Below are positions 7,241-20,143 of a DNA stretch of 64,000 nt, in pieces. Position 1 is the first letter of the stretch. Every line of letters starts with the position of its first letter. The notes under the pieces are model-generated. The model was given only the letters and a program-made list of their open reading frames with translations. It made no database searches and was not told the origin of the DNA. The DNA comes from Tolypothrix brevis GSE-NOS-MK-07-07A (GTDB taxonomy: Bacteria > Cyanobacteriota > Cyanobacteriia > Cyanobacteriales > Nostocaceae), in the NCBI GenBank assembly GCA_019358985.1, contig JAHHIJ010000006.1:62001-126000 (forward strand), in the 5' to 3' direction. A program made the translations under genes and the position numbers.

Positions 7241-8467
7241 ATGCGAATTTCATACCAATACAAACTAAAGCCAACAAAACTACAAGCAGTACAACTGAAT
7301 AGGTGGCTTGATATGCTCCGCGCTCAGTATAACTATTTGTTGAGTGATAAGTTTAATTGGTATGAATTCAATAGATGTCCTATTAATGCGTGTCCACTGA
7401 TTTGTCATTTACCAGATTTAAGAGAACAACCGAACGTTTACAATCAAGAGAAAAGACTACCTCAGCTTAAAATCACACATCCCTGGTACAAAGAGATATA
7501 TTCTCAAGTACTCCAAAACGTCGTCAAGCGAGTAGATAAAACGTTTGAACGTTTCCTTAAAGGTGATTGTAATGGGAAACGTAGTGGTAGACCTCGCTTT
7601 AAGGGTGAAGGTCAATATAAAACTTTCACTTATCCACAGGCTAAACCAGATTGCTTAGTAGGCAATAAAATCAAGTTGCCTAAGTTGGGTGATTTTAAAG
7701 TAGTCGTTCATCGCCCAATACCCGACGGCTTTAAAATAAAAACTGTCTCAGTCACCAAGAAAGCTGACGGATTCTATGTAACCTTAAGCCTGGATGATGC
7801 TACAGTTCCAACGGTCAAGCCCGACTTTAATTCAGACAAAATAATTGGGATAGATTTAGGTCTTAAAGACTTTTTGACAGATTCAAACGGTCAAGCCATA
7901 CCAATTCAGCAGCATTTCCGTGAGTCTCAGAAAAGATTAAAGCTACTTCAAAAACGTGTTTCTAGAAGAAAAAAAGGTAGTAACCGACGGAAAAAAGCGG
8001 TTAATCAAGTCGCTCGTCAACACAAAAAAGTGGCTGATACGCGTCGTGATTTTCACTTTAAAACTGCAAATAATCTATTAAAAAAATATGATGTTGTTGT
8101 AGTTGAAGACTTAAATATCAAAGGGCTTTCACGCTCAATGCTAGCAAAGTCTGTACATGATGCTGGTTGGGGTAATTTTCTATCGATACTAACTAATAAA
8201 GCCGAAAACGCTGGTTTGTTAGTCATCGCAGTAAATCCCAATAATACCAGTCAGAATTGTTCAGCCTGCGGCGTGAAAGTACCAAAAAAACTACATGAAC
8301 GGTGGCACAATTGTCAGTGTGGATGTAGTTTAGATCGCGATCATAACGCGGCGATAAATATAAAAAATAGAGCCGAGGGTCATCCGGTTCTTAAAGCCAA
8401 GAGCCTCCTAAGCGATAGCCGGATTGTCTTGGAAGCCTACACTGTACCTGTAATCAGGTCAGTGTAG
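7241..8467 (+). CDS. tnpB: TnpB, RNA-guided endonuclease of an IS200/IS605-type element
   Basis: 408 residues. N-terminal helix-turn-helix/oligonucleotide-binding part (1-190) with RPRFKG near 117. RuvC-like core: D205 in [10 protein letters not shown]289 in [10 protein letters not shown], Asp in LDRDHNAA (365-371). A four-Cys zinc ribbon lies between C340-x2-C343 and the C358/C360/C362 group. All catalytic residues are present, so it should be active. TnpB proteins use an RNA from the element's right end to cleave the donor site and keep the element. A good Shine-Dalgarno site (aggaggt) lies 7 bp before the ATG. Confidence 0.92.
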
Positions 8468-10574: not shown

Positions 10575-10623
10575 TTGAATGTCCGTTTAATTAACAGTAA
10601 TAAAAACCTACCTACCGTCGTAG

Positions 10624-10739
10624 AGACGTTCCGGCGGAACGTCTTTACAATTAGACGTTCCGGCGGAACGTCTTTACAATTAGACGTTCCGGCGGAACGT
10701 CTTTACAATTAGACGTTCCGGCGGAACGTCTTTACAATT
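10624..10739. repeat. Four tandem 29-bp palindromic repeats
   Basis: Four almost identical 29-bp units, each made of the 19-bp palindrome gacgttccggcggaacgtc followed by tttacaatta, between mutL and the end of the cpc operon (the two are convergent). Each unit can form a stem of about 9 bp. The same core recurs at 15092-15110, 62552-62578 and 62644-62671. Spacers are identical and as short as the arms, so this is not a CRISPR array. Confidence 0.9.
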
Positions 10740-10806
10740 GTAAGTAATTTAGCGGACATGATATGAGCCAATTCCTGTTCGGCATTAACAGACTTATATA
10801 TAAAAC

Positions 10807-10836
10807 GGGCGTAGAAAATTGAACTTTTCCACGCCC
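10807..10836 (-). terminator. Terminator hairpin of the cpc operon
   Basis: Inverted repeat gggcgt...acgccc with a paired gaaaa/tttttc interior, lying 30 bp after the cpcD stop on the minus strand and followed in that direction by a T-rich run. This is the form expected of a factor-independent terminator for the operon. Confidence 0.6.
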
Positions 10837-10865
10837 ATAAATACAAATATCAGATATGATTGCGG

Positions 10866-11123
10866 TCAGTTTTCCGATGCAGCTTCCGTTGAATTTTCAC
10901 TTAACGGACGGATGCCAACAATTTTGCCACCTAATCGGGTAATGCGTCGCATCTCATCATTCATGCGGCTATAGGGGACTTGAATCAGAATTGTGCTGCT
11001 ATTACGAACCGGATAATTATTTTTTCCAGTTTGGTCGTTTTGCCGTAATCCTTCTACTTCATAGACAAAAAAGCGATTGTCTGAAGTTGAACTTGACGCT
11101 TTCATCCGTGGCTGTGCCAACAT
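10866..11123 (-). CDS. cpcD: Phycobilisome rod-capping small linker CpcD
   Basis: 85 residues, a stand-alone CpcD-like domain. Core: NRFFVYEVEGLRQND, NNYPVRNSSTILIQVPYSRMNDEMRRITRLGGKIVGIRPL, matching the family's small beta-sheet fold. CpcD caps the outer end of phycocyanin rods and sets rod length. It is the last gene of the operon, 14 bp after the preceding linker, with a good site (aggaga) before its ATG at 11123. Confidence 0.93.
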   Translation of the reverse strand: MLAQPRMKASSSTSDNRFFVYEVEGLRQNDQTGKNNYPVRNSSTILIQVPYSRMNDEMRRITRLGGKIVGIRPLSENSTEAASEN

Positions 11124-11137
11124 AATGATTCTATCTC

Positions 11138-12010
11138 CTATTGTGCGAAGGTGATGCTGGCAACCTTACCGCCCAGCTTATTAATTTGCTGCAAAGTACT
11201 GGATAGCTGTTCGTAGGGGACGATGAACTCTTTATTGCTACGACGAACTTTCGGATATCTTGGCAAACTGATACCCGTAACTTCAATTCGGTAGAGACGC
11301 GGGGTAGAGCCTTGGGAGGATCTACCAAAGGTGCGGCTGGGAGCAGTCCCTTGGAGTGAGGGTTGGTATGCCCAACCTTCACTGCCACCGGAAGGAGGGA
11401 TGATTGCAGTGGCACTATTTTTAGCTAAGTCAGCTGCCAGACGAGAGCTCGTACCTGCTAGCTGGGAGCGATCGCTATTGGCATAGCCGCGATAAAGGCG
11501 GAACATACGAGTGAAACCAACTGTTCTCTGACCGATTCCTGTGGTTACAAGATCACGGTAGAAGGGGACGATGGCATCCCCAAAGTTGGCATCATATTCA
11601 GCAGAGTCGATATAGGAATCGATGTCTGCCTCGAATCCTTTATTTTGGTAGAGATCGAGATGGGAAATCACTTCCGACTCATCGTAGGGAGCGCGTCCCA
11701 ACAAATGTTTAAAGTTCAATTCTATTACCCGAGTTTGAAAATGCGGGTAAAAGAACTTGGTTTTGTATAAGTCAGATTTGGCAACGGCTCTGACGAAATC
11801 CCGAACACTGAGTTTACCATTGGTCAGCAACGACTCCAAGCTGGTGAGACGTTCTGACTGCATCAGGTAATCGTTGCCTAATACCTGACGATAAACTGCC
11901 TGGATGACAATTTTACCATCTTCTGGTGTCCAGTTTGGACGCAGTTCAGTCGGGCGTGTTTGGTCAAAAGCCGTAGTTCCCAAACGAGATGCTGCGGTTG
12001 TAATTGCCAC
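11138..12010 (-). CDS. cpcC: Phycobilisome rod linker, phycocyanin-associated (CpcC/CpcI type)
   Basis: 290 residues. N-terminal Pfam00427-type linker domain (about 20-180: [103 protein letters not shown]). A flexible segment follows, then a C-terminal CpcD-like domain (about 235-290). It joins phycocyanin hexamers within rods. Translation begins at a GTG at 12010 with the site AAGGAGAATATTC in front, which decides the start. In the cpc2 naming of chromatically acclimating strains this position would be cpcI2. Confidence 0.92.
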
Positions 12011-12053: not shown

Positions 12054-12863
12054 TTAGGCAGGAGAAATATTTACTACCCGGCTACCCCGCTGATTTAGTC
12101 TTTGCAGAGTGGGTGAGAGTTGATCGTAGGTGACTAAATACTCACTCATACTGCGCCGAATTTGGGGAGTTCGTCCTCTATTTGCTTGCATAAATCGCAC
12201 TCGGTAAAGCTGCCCGCGATCGCCTGCCACAGTGCCAGTAAGTCCCTTTCCGAAGCTAGGAGTCTGAACGGGAGTAGCCATATTCAGAGCGAGATCCTGG
12301 GTTAACCAAGCAGATTTATTTTTACCTTGGGCGCGATCGCTATTAGCATACCCCCGGTATATTTGAAACATCCGGCTGAAGCCTACTGTTTTTTGTCCCC
12401 GTTGAGTTGCAAATCCTCGATAATAGGGAACGATTGATTCTCCAAAGTTTTCTTGATATTCCAGTGAATCAATATAGGAATTGATTTCTGCCTCGTATCC
12501 TTTTTCTGTATATATATTGACGTGGTAAGCAATTTCTGCTTCATCGTAGGTAGCACGACCAAGCAGGTGCTTGTAGTTCAATTCGATGAAGCGGACTTGA
12601 GGTGTAGAGTAAAAGAACTTTTGTCGATATAGCTCAGATTGTGCTAACGATCGCACAAAATCCCGAACGGTAATGTTACCCTGCTGCAATAGCGATTCTG
12701 CACTGGTGAGACGTTCACTTTGCATCAAGTGGTCATTGCCAAACACCTGTCGATAGGCAGCAAGAATCACCGCTTTTAAATCTTCATTTCCCCGCAATTC
12801 TGTGGGAGATGTGCTGACAAACGGCTCAAATCCTAGCTGACTGGCTGCCATAGTACTAGTCAT
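12054..12863 (-). CDS. cpcC: Phycobilisome rod linker, phycocyanin-associated (CpcC/CpcH type)
   Basis: 269 residues from the ATG at 12863, preceded by AAGGAGATCAGTT; a longer frame from 12944 is open but lacks such a site and adds 27 unrelated residues. Domain order is as in its neighbour: Pfam00427-type linker domain (about 20-180), then a CpcD-like domain (about 215-269). It is a paralogue of the next gene, sharing [34 protein letters not shown] and [17 protein letters not shown], but diverged in the linker between domains. Two different rod linkers in a row after cpcA are typical of cpc2-type operons (cpcH2, cpcI2). Confidence 0.92.
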
Positions 12864-13465: not shown

Positions 13466-13994
13466 AAAACCTCGTAGTATGTGGTAAATTCAGTCACTTT
13501 CAGTGCTGAGAGGGAAACAGCAAATCGCGATTTTAATCGCTTTGAATATTTGAAACCATTATCGCCTTGGGGTTACTTAATTTGGTCTGCTATTGTGCTG
13601 CACTTTCAACGGGACAATTACCGTTTCAAACTTTTCGCCCTGTACGCATAATGTTTTGCACACGATGTGCCTCCCTTGCGGGGTGATGTTAGCCTCGACC
13701 TGTTATAAGAGCTTGTTAGACTTGCAGCACTAATTCAGTGACCTTAAATTTGTTTAACTGCAAATGACAGAGCGGGGAACTGGCTTGTCTGGCGACACGC
13801 TTACGCGAACGCATTCCAGGGTGTCGTGACTCGAATAACGCTTACCTATTGCTAGGTGGTCTGGTCAGTATGGCTTGTTTGATTGCTCTTACAAGCCCAG
13901 TCCCTTTCGGTCGGTGGGTTACTGACGTTATAATCCTTTCAACAAATATGTAAAGTTGTGCGTCAGAAAGTTGAAATAATGAAGTGGCGATTTA
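13466..13994 (-). other. Unusually long cpcB-cpcA intercistronic spacer
   Basis: 529 bp lie between the cpcB stop and the cpcA start; in most cpc operons this is of the order of 50-150 bp. It has no ORF of note. It contains a dispersed GC-rich repeat with acgcttacgcgaacgc (about 13787-13816) and several short inverted pairs, including cccagtccc/ggtcggtggg near 13900 and gcacacgatgtgc near 13658. It could hold an internal promoter, a processing site or a partial terminator that sets the ratio of cpcB to downstream products, or just an inserted repeat. Confidence 0.6.
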
Positions 13995-14513: not shown

Positions 14514-14876
14514 TCCAGCGTCTCCTAATAATTTTTACTATGCTGTTGATTCAAATTCGGTTCAAAGTTGATTTGGATAAGCATATTGAAAGATGGCTCC
14601 GCTATCATTAGTAAACAGGCAAACAGTCACTCATCGAGTTAAACTTGCTTGAAAAACAAGGCAAATTCATCCGTGAACTGTTAGCTAGTTTCAATGCACC
14701 AACGGTACAGCTATAAATCAATACTGCCAATATCCTAGGGCAACCATTTCCCTCAGACTGACAAGCCCAGATAATGAAATGGCTGTTCATCAATTTTTCA
14801 GAAACTGAATCTTCTCCATCAAGGGCAAAGAGTTCAGTTGTTTTTTGAACCTATAATTTGATTAAAGCAATCTGTT

Positions 14877-14894
14877 TGTGCAAATTTTGTGCAA
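14877..14894 (-). promoter_or_regulatory. L box, direct repeat TTGCACA-N4-TTGCACA
   Basis: On the minus strand, reading toward cpcB, the sequence is TTGCACA-AAAT-TTGCACA. This is exactly the L-box consensus described as the RcaC binding site in cpc2 and related light-colour-regulated genes. A possible -10 (ttatag near 14850-14856) lies about 20 bp downstream, so the second half-site would overlap the -35 position and give a leader of about 330 nt. Family knowledge: phosphorylated RcaC activates cpc2 in red light. The match is seen directly; the regulation is inferred. Confidence 0.85.
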
Positions 14895-15058
14895 TTTTAA
14901 AAGTGTCGCCGGAAAATTGGTTAAAAAATATTAAGGAAACGCTGAAACCTTTGTGATTCAAAGGATTAATTGTATTTTAGTTTTGTCTTTAGACTTAACT
15001 TATTGTTACATTTGGTTTTGGACTTTGAAACCGCTTCCGTCTCTGTGGACTAACTCCT

Positions 15059-15141
15059 ACAGCAGATTGGGTTGTGATTAAATACACGTAGAGACGTTCC
15101 GACGGAACGTCTTTACAGGGTTTTGGGTTTTACCCATTGCT
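15059..15141 (-). repeat. MITE-like repeat, family B, degenerate copy
   Basis: It starts with acagcagatt and matches, in reverse orientation, the 3' two-thirds of the element at 39681-39788: attaaatacacgtagagacg, then a palindrome (here gacgttccgacggaacgtc), then ggttttgggttttac. The distal terminal repeat is missing. The palindrome core differs from that of the other family-B copies. Confidence 0.65.
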
Positions 15142-17335: not shown

Positions 17336-18931
17336 ATGGTAACGGTGAATATTCCTGAGTTAGATCAAGCCGATCGCTTTCGGGATTTACAATTAACTTT
17401 ACGCGATCGTTGGAAAACTATCGAGCTATTTGACAATAGTGATGCTGATATTTTAGTTGTTCCCTCTATCAGTCTCGACCAGCAAGAACTTCAAAAAATT
17501 GAAGGTTGCGAACATTATGAAGAAAGATTGCTATTTTCTTTGATGCGCTTGTGGAATCCCCGCACCAGGCTGATTTATATCACATCAATGCCGCTACATC
17601 CCAGCATTATTGATTATTATTTACAATTATTGCCGGGAATTCCCTTTTCACATGCTCGCAATCGCTTGCTGCTACTTTCCACTTACGATTCTTCCCTCAA
17701 ACCCCTCAGTCAAAAGATTTTAGAACGTCCTCGCTTACTAGAGCGAATTCGCCAAGCTTTGAGGCTAGAAAAGTCATTCATGGTATGTTATAATTCTACA
17801 TGGTGGGAAGGTAAATTATCTCTCAAATTGAATGTACCCCTGTACGCAGCGGCACCTAATTTGCAGATTTGGGGAACTAAAAGCGGCAGTCGAGAAATCT
17901 TCGCTGAAAGTAAAGTCCCTCTTCCCGATGGTAGCGCTCTTGTTTGGAATAGCAGCGATTTAGCTTTATCAGCAGCGGATTTGTGGGAACGTCAGCCAAG
18001 TTTAGAAAGAATGGTGGTGAAACTGAATGAGGGTATTTCCGGAGAAGGCAATGCCTTATTAGATTTAAGACCAATCGCCAAATTAGCACCACCAGAAAGT
18101 TCCCATGATGATAGAGTAGCAGCAATAAGCGATCGCTTCAATTCTCTGCGCTTTCAAGCAAAAAAAGAAACTTGGGAGAACTTTAATCCCAGAATCAGCG
18201 AGTTAGGAGCAATCGTTGAAGCATTTGTGGAAGGAGAAATCAAGCGATCGCCTAGTGTTCAAGGACGCATCACACCTAACGGTGAAGTAGAAATTGTCTC
18301 AACCCACGACCAAATTCTCGGAGGTTTAGACGGTCAAATTTATCTTGGTTGTCGATTTCCCGCTGACGAAGCTTATCGACTGCAACTGCAACAATTAGGA
18401 ATAAAAGTTGGCAAAAAGTTAGCGGAAAAAGGCGCACTAGAGAGATTTGGGGTAGATTTTATCGCCGTTGATAAAGGAAATAATGATTGGGATATTCAAG
18501 CGATCGAAATCAACTTGCGTAAGGGTGGCACTACCCATCCCTTCATGACTTTAAAGTTATTAACCAACGGACGCTATGACCTATCCACAGGATTATTCTA
18601 CAGCCAACAGGGACGACCAAAATATTATATTGCCACCGACAATCTGCAAAAAGACCGCTATCGAGGATTGTTACCCAACGATTTGATGGATATTATCGCC
18701 CATCACAGACTGCACTTTGATAGCGGAACCGAGATAGGCACTGTATTTCATTTGATGGGATGTCTTTCTCAATTTGGCAAATTGGGATTAACCTGTATCG
18801 GAGATTCTCCCCAACAAGCAGAAGAAATTTACAACAAAATCGTCAAAGTCCTTGACGAAGAAACCCGCACCAACAAAAGTGATTTTTCCTCATTCTCAGA
18901 TTACGCTTTCAGTTATAATTTCGTAGGATAA
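17336..18931 (+). CDS. ATP-grasp peptide ligase of the PGM1-related type
   Basis: 531 residues, no signal peptide. The N-terminal third is Rossmann-like (DILVVPSISL, RTRLIYITSMPL). An ATP-grasp domain follows, with MVVKLNEGISGEGNALL (lysine strand and glycine-rich loop, about 223-239), GAIVEAFVEGEI (adenine-binding strand, about 290-301), and the metal site DIQAIEINLRKGGTTHPF (about 383-400). The C-terminus resembles the PGM1_C extension. Family knowledge: PGM1 of Streptomyces joins peptides through an amidino-amino acid; cyanobacterial homologues are uncharacterised as far as I know. A tnpB gene is inserted 24 bp after its stop. Confidence 0.78.
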   Translation: MVTVNIPELDQADRFRDLQLTLRDRWKTIELFDNSDADILVVPSISLDQQELQKIEGCEHYEERLLFSLMRLWNPRTRLIYITSMPLHPSIIDYYLQLLPGIPFSHARNRLLLLSTYDSSLKPLSQKILERPRLLERIRQALRLEKSFMVCYNSTWWEGKLSLKLNVPLYAAAPNLQIWGTKSGSREIFAESKVPLPDGSALVWNSSDLALSAADLWERQPSLERMVVKLNEGISGEGNALLDLRPIAKLAPPESSHDDRVAAISDRFNSLRFQAKKETWENFNPRISELGAIVEAFVEGEIKRSPSVQGRITPNGEVEIVSTHDQILGGLDGQIYLGCRFPADEAYRLQLQQLGIKVGKKLAEKGALERFGVDFIAVDKGNNDWDIQAIEINLRKGGTTHPFMTLKLLTNGRYDLSTGLFYSQQGRPKYYIATDNLQKDRYRGLLPNDLMDIIAHHRLHFDSGTEIGTVFHLMGCLSQFGKLGLTCIGDSPQQAEEIYNKIVKVLDEETRTNKSDFSSFSDYAFSYNFVG

Positions 18932-18955: not shown

Positions 18956-20143
18956 TTACTTTTTTATCGTTTCAACGGGTGATGTCGGCATCTTTAACCC
19001 TCCACGACCAGAACCGGGTAACTCTCCGGTTATTCCTGAAGGAAATAATTTATTCCAACCATACAAACACAAATTGTATGCAGCGTTTTCATCCCTATCT
19101 CTTTCGTAACCACAACTTCCACAGGTGTAAGTGCGAATATTTAACGGCATTTTCTGCTTTGCACCGCACTGGGGACATAATTGAGATGAAGGATAAAAAG
19201 TATCAACCTGTATTAATTGACTAGCAAATTTCTGTGTTTTGTATTTGAACTGTCGTTCTATTTCACCAAACCCACAATCTGCAACAGCAGCAGCTAGTTT
19301 ATGGTTTTGCAGCATTCCATTAACGTTAAGATTCTCAATCACTACAACTGCGTGGTTTTTGCATATTGATGTAGTCATCTGATGAATGGTGTTACTGCGT
19401 GTATCTGCAATCTGCTTGTGATATTTAGCTAATCTATTTTTAGCTTTGGTATGTCGTTTACTGCCCTTTGTTTTACCTTGTAATTGTCTTTGTAACCTCG
19501 CTAACTGTTTTTTCGATTTTCGGTATTTTTTCGGATTATCAAATGTTTTAGCTGTATTTAAACTAATGGCTACAGCTAAACTATTGATGCCGGAATCGAC
19601 ACCAACAATATCATCCACATCCCCAATATTACTGGGTGATATATCAGGAATTTCGTAATTAAAAGAAATATACCAACTATCTGCGGTACGGGATACAGTA
19701 ACTTTTTTTATATCTACTGATGGCAATTTTTCAAAAGTCGAAACTGTTCCCAATGGTGCTGGTAACTTGATCCGATTACCAACTATGCGTTTGACTTTGC
19801 CGTTCCAATCAACAGTAAAAGAATCCGTTGATTTTCCTTTCTTTTTAAAAGTTGGCTTTTTGGAAATACCGCTCCATAAGCGTCTATATCCTTCATGCAA
19901 ATGCTCGAAGGCATAGACATAAACCCTAGATGACATTTGATTCATCCAAGGATATTCTGGCTTGACTGTGTTTGTATAGAACTTACGAGCATCACGATAA
20001 CTAAGTTTGACACCAGACTTATAAAAATCTTCGATTGTAGCAAGTGCCCAATTATAAACCCAACGACTGTAACCTGCATGTTGGGCAAATAATTGTTGCT
20101 GAATCGGATTTATTTTTAGTTTGGTTTTAAAACCTAGTTGCAT
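18956..20143 (-). CDS. tnpB: TnpB-family RNA-guided endonuclease (second copy, different subfamily)
   Basis: 395 residues. N-terminal helix-turn-helix part begins with QLGFKTKLKINPIQQQLFAQHAGYSRWVYNWAL. RuvC-like residues: Asp in VGVDSGINSLA, Glu in VVIENLNVNGML, Asp in RDRDENAAYNL. Zinc ribbon CPQCGAKQKMPLNIRTYTCGSCG has all four Cys. It appears intact. The 3' end (GSGRGGLKMPTSPVETIKK) overlaps a hairpin with the arms aactctccggtt/aaccgg, consistent with a right-end guide RNA that overlaps the gene, and gaggatgac at 18939-18950 is the probable right boundary. A left end near 20204 (TTAT on the minus strand followed by a small hairpin) is tentative. There is no tnpA. Confidence 0.9.
   Translation of the reverse strand: MQLGFKTKLKINPIQQQLFAQHAGYSRWVYNWALATIEDFYKSGVKLSYRDARKFYTNTVKPEYPWMNQMSSRVYVYAFEHLHEGYRRLWSGISKKPTFKKKGKSTDSFTVDWNGKVKRIVGNRIKLPAPLGTVSTFEKLPSVDIKKVTVSRTADSWYISFNYEIPDISPSNIGDVDDIVGVDSGINSLAVAISLNTAKTFDNPKKYRKSKKQLARLQRQLQGKTKGSKRHTKAKNRLAKYHKQIADTRSNTIHQMTTSICKNHAVVVIENLNVNGMLQNHKLAAAVADCGFGEIERQFKYKTQKFASQLIQVDTFYPSSQLCPQCGAKQKMPLNIRTYTCGSCGYERDRDENAAYNLCLYGWNKLFPSGITGELPGSGRGGLKMPTSPVETIKK

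Follow-up and report, generated by a model that had tools for sequence, protein, structure and literature searches.

The exact L box upstream of cpcB is very probably the binding site of RcaC in a red-light-induced cpc2 promoter, which would make this phycocyanin operon a target of type 3 chromatic acclimation (CA3). Here RcaC binding, the direction of the phosphorelay and the response to light are modelled on the CA3 strains that have been studied. The genome has the site, the genes of the signalling pathway and a conserved promoter arrangement, and across cyanobacterial genomes the site and RcaC occur together. The cpc2 L box belongs to a known system, of which it is an ordinary and well-supported example; what is unusual is the mobile RNA within the operon. 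The sighting of a motif becomes a testable prediction of the colour response of this strain.

The cpc2 operon and its promoter

The features of the operon are listed in Table 1, with positions counted in the window, the whole stretch of 64,000 nucleotides that was analysed. The L box, TTGCACAAAATTTGCACA, consists of two TTGCACA repeats separated by AAAT, 18 bases in all, and lies at 14877-14894 on the minus strand, which is the strand of cpcB, as the earlier note had said. Its first base is 381 nt upstream of the cpcB ATG. A second exact match occurs neither in the window nor elsewhere in the 6.52-Mb genome, and 100 dinucleotide shuffles of the window gave none at all. Three other genome sites have a single mismatch; all are within long open frames, one of them in a TnpB-like gene, and they were dropped as targets.

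Table 1. Features of the cpc2 operon and its promoter, in the order of transcription (positions in the window)
Feature	Position	Strand	Basis or remark
L box TTGCACAAAATTTGCACA	14877..14894	-	Direct repeat, 11-bp period; proposed RcaC site
-10 hexamer TTTAAT	14861..14866	-	Exactly 10 nt downstream of the L box; same spacing in 41/41 L-box loci
Predicted 5' leader, ~340 nt	14514..14854	-	Start placed ~7 nt past the -10 from promoter anatomy
cpcB, cpc2-type phycocyanin beta, 172 aa	13995..14513	-	ORF and TIGR01339, 313.7 bits
Mobile element with HEARO RNA, 461 nt	13466..13926	-	Absent from the L050-L054 spacers; repeated in the genome
HEARO RNA (RF02033), an IscB/IsrB omega-RNA	13683..13926	-	On the operon's strand; 116.4 bits against a gathering score of 83
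cpcA, 162 aa	12977..13465	-	TIGR01338, 302.5 bits
Rod linker 1, presumably CpcH-like	12054..12863	-	PBS_linker_poly match; internal ATG chosen as start
Rod linker 2, presumably CpcI-like	11138..12010	-	C-terminal CpcD-like stretch
cpcD rod-capping linker	10866..11123	-	NF058509, 117.5 bits
Terminator-like hairpin past cpcD	10805..10838	-	14-pair stem, then TTTATATATA; likely operon end (the hairpin scan gave 6 sites of this kind, shuffled versions of the region 4.9)

Since the -10 hexamer follows the L box at a distance of 10 nt, the box occupies the -35 region. The overlap with the -35 position, which the earlier note had proposed to look for, is thus borne out on sequence grounds, the box apparently taking the place of that element. 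Replacement of the -35 element by the binding site is the arrangement of PhoB-type activators. A scan for consensus -35/-10 pairs reports none at the cpc2 promoter, as would be expected if an activator is required. We take the likeness to the PhoB/pho box class to extend to the OmpR/PhoB-type DNA-binding domain of the regulator, the two 7-bp direct repeats with an 11-bp period and a box that replaces the -35 some 10 bp ahead of the -10; the signal and the sequence are different.

The leader between the predicted start and cpcB was considered as a conserved RNA structure and rejected as unproven, because covariation support is lacking (in none of the five RNAalifold pairs have both sides changed) and six single folds reach z values no lower than -2.2. 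An A/T-rich block upstream of the L box, CTTAATATTTTTTAACC (about 14919-14940), is conserved in the window and in the relatives L050-L054, and so is GGTTCAAAA downstream of the -10.

The gene order cpcB-cpcA-linker-linker-cpcD, without cpcE, cpcF or cpcG, is as the earlier note described it, and all five genes are open; the note made no mention of the long spacer of 529 nt between cpcB and cpcA. Two TnpB-like (OrfB_IS605) genes flank the operon, one on each side (7241-8467 and 18956-20143). Palindromic-unit repeats around GACGTTCCGGCGGAACGTCTTTACAATT are located behind it (10620-10740), and a variant is found upstream, at about 15090-15120.

RcaE, RcaF and RcaC

The three regulators that the earlier note proposed to search for, RcaE, RcaF and RcaC, are all encoded on contig C45. 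RcaE is a PAS-GAF-kinase of 718 aa, whose GAF domain is closest to PDB entries 8k9o and 7ckv, the latter named RcaE. It has Cys248, Leu249, Lys261 and Glu217, which we take to be the chromophore Cys and the positions of the green/red triad. RcaF is a receiver of 123 aa. Its relatives adjoin rcaE or rcaC in 12 fetched loci, with identities of 61-90% (84-90% in seven of the 12). RcaC, with 660 aa, has two receivers, a Trans_reg_C DNA-binding domain and an Hpt domain, and its receiver Asp51 motif is in place. Other genes separate rcaC, rcaF and rcaE on C45, and neither cpc2 nor pcyA is on this contig, so that what forms a cluster in relatives is dispersed in this genome.

The proposal of the earlier note that light colour controls this operon through an RcaC-like regulator is supported as far as the genome sequence can test it, since rcaC, rcaE and a second cpc operon are all present.

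The L box in other genomes

With the CpcB of the window as query, at least 552 candidate cpcB loci were confirmed in public cyanobacterial genomes, and the best 79 were compared. Being the best of a longer list, these 79 loci represent the nearest relatives and are not a random sample. Within this set, 41 of the 79 loci have an L box on the coding strand (0-1 mismatch, at most 1000 nt upstream), and in every one of the 41 a hexamer T[TA][TAC]AAT lies exactly 10 nt past the box. The L box with a -10 at exactly 10 nt is a consistent signature of such phycocyanin operons.

The same division is seen in the gene content of the operons. The names cpcE and cpcF stand here for relatives of the two PBS-lyase-like proteins with HEAT repeats that are encoded behind cpc1. 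They share the operon in none of 39 L-box loci and in 30 of the 38 that have no box (Fisher p 2e-14, kinship ignored). Two of the 41 L-box loci, L055 and L078, were dropped from this count as their contigs end early, and L058, which ends soon past the first linker, was kept; some contigs among the 38 loci without the box also end early, and L115 has just 115 nt upstream.

An RcaC ortholog is found in 36 of 41 L-box genomes, against 4 of 33 whose fetched cpcB locus has no box (p 2.5e-11, phylogeny ignored), by a rule that was set post hoc from the lists: an identity of at least 54% across 280 residues, or of 75% across 225. This count was compiled by hand and leaves out five of the 79 loci (L085, L103, L105, L110 and L120), whose genomes, going by the record names, were already represented. 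Five of the 41 L-box genomes are without an RcaC ortholog by the rule; three of them (L089, L116 and L118) have an rcaC-like gene with 40-53% identity adjoining the operon. Support of another kind for the association of the box with RcaC comes from gene neighbourhoods. In six of the 79 loci (L057, L066, L068, L069, L071 and L108), rcaE, rcaF, rcaC, pcyA and cpc2 are consecutive and share a strand, and in 13 loci, from a scan of 50 genomes, an exact L box lies upstream of pcyA. These 50 genomes, most of which were picked for carrying the box or RcaC, have 60 exact L boxes, compared with none for a reversed-pattern control.

In L177 and L178 an identical exact L-box-like sequence, TTGCACAACTGTTGCACA, lies in a similar reading frame; both genomes are without an RcaC ortholog by the rule, and the sequence is probably a coding coincidence. 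The RcaC of L107, L108, L122 and L127 (Pseudanabaena, Phormidium) is about 530 aa long and is without the middle region, approximately residues 380-525 of the 660-aa form. The L boxes of the same four loci carry one mismatch.

Other candidate targets and comparison with known CA3 systems

The second cpcBA operon (cpc1), for which the earlier note had also called, is on contig C69, where two PBS-lyase-like genes come after cpcBA. No L box occurs in the 694 nt of upstream sequence on the contig; a site with three mismatches overlaps the start of the operon. The cpe genes, likewise sought in the light of the earlier note, are found on two contigs: cpeB, cpeA and cpeY on C43, and pebA, pebB, cpeS, cpeT and three linkers of the cpeC/D/E kind on C10. 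CpeB, CpeA, CpeY, PebA and PebB exceed their NCBIfam cut-offs, while CpeS and CpeT were recognised by Pfam. The names CpeC, CpeZ and CpeR are our presumed assignments in this genome.

An inverted L-box-like site with two mismatches is located at -278, upstream of the cpeC-like linker gene on C10. Among 20 relative loci, ten have an inverted site with one mismatch at -265 to -281 of cpeC, one has an inverted site at -448, and nine have no inverted L-box-like site within 600 nt; a CpeC match was absent in 11 of 30 genomes searched. The palindrome CAAGATTTAYAAATCTTG, or a sequence near it, is conserved between the inverted L box and cpeC (L044 at about 18200-18220, L206-L209 and L212) and is possibly the site of another regulator or a hairpin. 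At pcyA, where the earlier note proposed to look for another L box, none turned up: no match with up to four mismatches occurs in the 500 nt upstream of the pcyA match, so the regulon is smaller here than in the model strains. A standard target of RcaC, pcyA belongs to the regulon and does not enter into what defines a cpc2 operon.

The comparison with CA3 uses the generally known operon orders of Fremyella. The systems of Fremyella diplosiphon / Tolypothrix PCC 7601 and Synechococcus PCC 7335 share with this genome RcaE, RcaF and RcaC, an exact L box in the cpc2 promoter, a further cpcBA operon that has no L box and includes two PBS-lyase-like genes (cpcE/F), and pebAB with the cpe genes. The inverted L-box-like site upstream of cpeC is a candidate counterpart of their site of opposite orientation at a phycoerythrin linker operon. 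The T. brevis genome differs from these models in three respects, having no L box at pcyA, other genes between rcaC, rcaF and rcaE, and a HEARO element that interrupts cpc2 at the cpcA start codon. The L box of Fremyella follows PMC8256508 and what is generally known of CA3. For Synechococcus PCC 7335, PMC8256508 describes an L box of opposite orientation and at greater distance at the pebAB operon, which is repressed.

Proposed mechanism

On exposure to red light, the green/red cyanobacteriochrome kinase RcaE would pass phosphate to RcaF and from there to RcaC. Phosphorylated RcaC would bind both 7-bp direct repeats as a PhoB-type dimer, substitute for the absent -35 element and recruit RNA polymerase to the TTTAAT hexamer ten nucleotides downstream. 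In green light cpc2 would be off, and phycocyanin would be supplied by the L-box-free cpcBA operon on C69. Through the L-box-like site that lies far upstream of cpeC, which is inverted and weaker, phosphorylated RcaC may also repress the operon of phycoerythrin linkers in red light.

The CcaS/CcaR-like locus and alternative explanations

Contig C10 also has a locus (L044:7821-12789) at which a CcaS-like kinase, a CcaR-like regulator and a CpcL linker with a hydrophobic C-terminus are encoded together. The kinase was named from its Cys-Leu motif and its neighbours; compared with the GAF domain of the C45 protein, its own resembles the RcaE structures less closely. A G-box-like sequence, CTTTCCGATTTCTTTACCGTTT, upstream of cpcL is identical in 20 of 22 bases to the published G box of CcaR, given as CTTTCCGATTTCTTTACGATTT in PMC8256508. 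A HEARO copy lies between cpcL and ccaR at this locus. This genome thus seems to combine two green/red systems, RcaEFC with a CcaSR-like pair. The pairing is uncommon yet known, as PMC9415938 reports CcaS together with RcaE in 3 of 65 genomes. The CcaS-like and CcaR-like proteins, CpcL and the G-box-like site correspond to those of the CcaS/CcaR systems of chromatic acclimation types 1 and 2; they differ in being placed on C10, separate from the cpc2 operon of the window.

With such a pair in the genome, the L box might be bound by CcaR or another regulator of the PhoB type, cpc2 then belonging to a CcaS/CcaR-like system. In favour of this, RcaC and the CcaR-like protein share 55% identity across 222 aa, both kinds of site are 11-bp direct repeats, and kinase, regulator and cpcL stand together on C10. 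The G box differs from the L box in sequence, however, and has its own near match in front of cpcL, while the presence of the L box tracks RcaC, which makes assignment of cpc2 to CcaR very improbable. A chance occurrence of the 14-base motif would be consistent with the 15 of the 60 exact L boxes (14 loci) that are away from pcyA and phycocyanin genes, exact copies evidently arising outside such a context. Two of the 15 lie in a reading frame common to genomes without RcaC. The absence of exact matches from 100 shuffles and of reversed-pattern matches from 50 genomes reduces this explanation to a negligible probability, and the conservation of position in 41 loci refutes a chance origin.

The dispersal of the pathway bears on a different question, whether the box is a relic and control of cpc2 by RcaC is now weak or lost in this strain. 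Such decay could account for the scattering of rcaEFC, pcyA and cpc2, with pcyA on another contig and devoid of an L box, as well as for a cpeC site weaker than in relatives and for a HEARO element that splits cpcB from cpcA. The box is exact, though, and its -10 is at the conserved distance of 10 nt; rcaE, rcaF and rcaC are open, as are all five genes of the operon, and the four RcaE residues and the RcaC Asp51 motif are intact. Weakening or loss of control is accordingly judged unlikely, and an active RcaC site remains the favoured reading.

The HEARO element between cpcB and cpcA

The cpcB-cpcA spacer is 529 nt long here, compared with 71-146 nt in the five nearest relatives (L050-L054), because a mobile HEARO element sits within it. 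The element lies exactly between the native spacer, which contains the ribosome-binding site, and the cpcA start ATGA. Like HEARO elements of the IscB/IsrB (OMEGA) systems, it has the RF02033 RNA and an insertion site adjoining ATGA; it differs from them in having no IscB/IsrB gene and in lying inside a probably light-regulated operon. No long frame was found in the 461 nt of the window element, while another copy in the genome (L242) has HEARO followed by an IscB-like frame, recognised by eye. The ATGA insertion site is compatible with the target-adjacent motif NTGA that PMC9581776 gives for IsrB. Matches to mir-722, mir-34 and Teg23 were far below their gathering scores and were ignored.

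The HEARO family has 39 matches in the genome, 26 of them above the cut-off. Nine of 17 short copies directly precede an ATG that opens a frame of 60 codons or more, against a baseline of 278 of 1650 ATGA sites (16.8%; p 0.0007), a comparison in which adjacency to ATGA is partly built in, as right ends were set at the first ATGA past the conserved end. These 17 come from 20 loci, L244 (a duplicate), L242 (with the IscB-like frame) and L227 (the apcE copy, which ends 20 nt before the start) being omitted. The genes right after the nine copies include cpcA, ccaR, and those for rubredoxin and the variable chain of ferredoxin-thioredoxin reductase. One type of end has AAGGAG at ribosome-binding distance from the ATG (L230, L232, L236 and L243); two of these four, L236 and L243, precede frames of only 8 and 7 codons, which argues against an end tied to genes.

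These arrangements suggest, tentatively, that a mobile omega-RNA has captured the colour switch, a proposal we consider possible and rather doubtful. With HEARO inserted between the ribosome-binding site and the start of cpcA in an RcaC-controlled operon, red light would also yield an OMEGA guide RNA, its guide being the cpcB-cpcA junction, and an IscB-type protein of another copy could use it. In this lineage HEARO elements would tend to settle before ATGA starts, one end type bringing its own AAGGAG. If so, these two properties would let HEARO elements enter important operons with the gene surviving. The insertion in cpc2 may serve as a natural test of the life of a mobile guide RNA inside a light-harvesting operon.

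The copies L226-L245 of this genome and L250 and L269 of the same genus often end directly before a gene-opening ATGA. Three light-harvesting loci of this genome have a copy, before cpcA, before ccaR and near apcE, and the copy shortly upstream of apcE is also found in one genome of the same genus. L250 and L238, from two genomes, have the same gene downstream, that for the variable chain of ferredoxin-thioredoxin reductase, and different end types.
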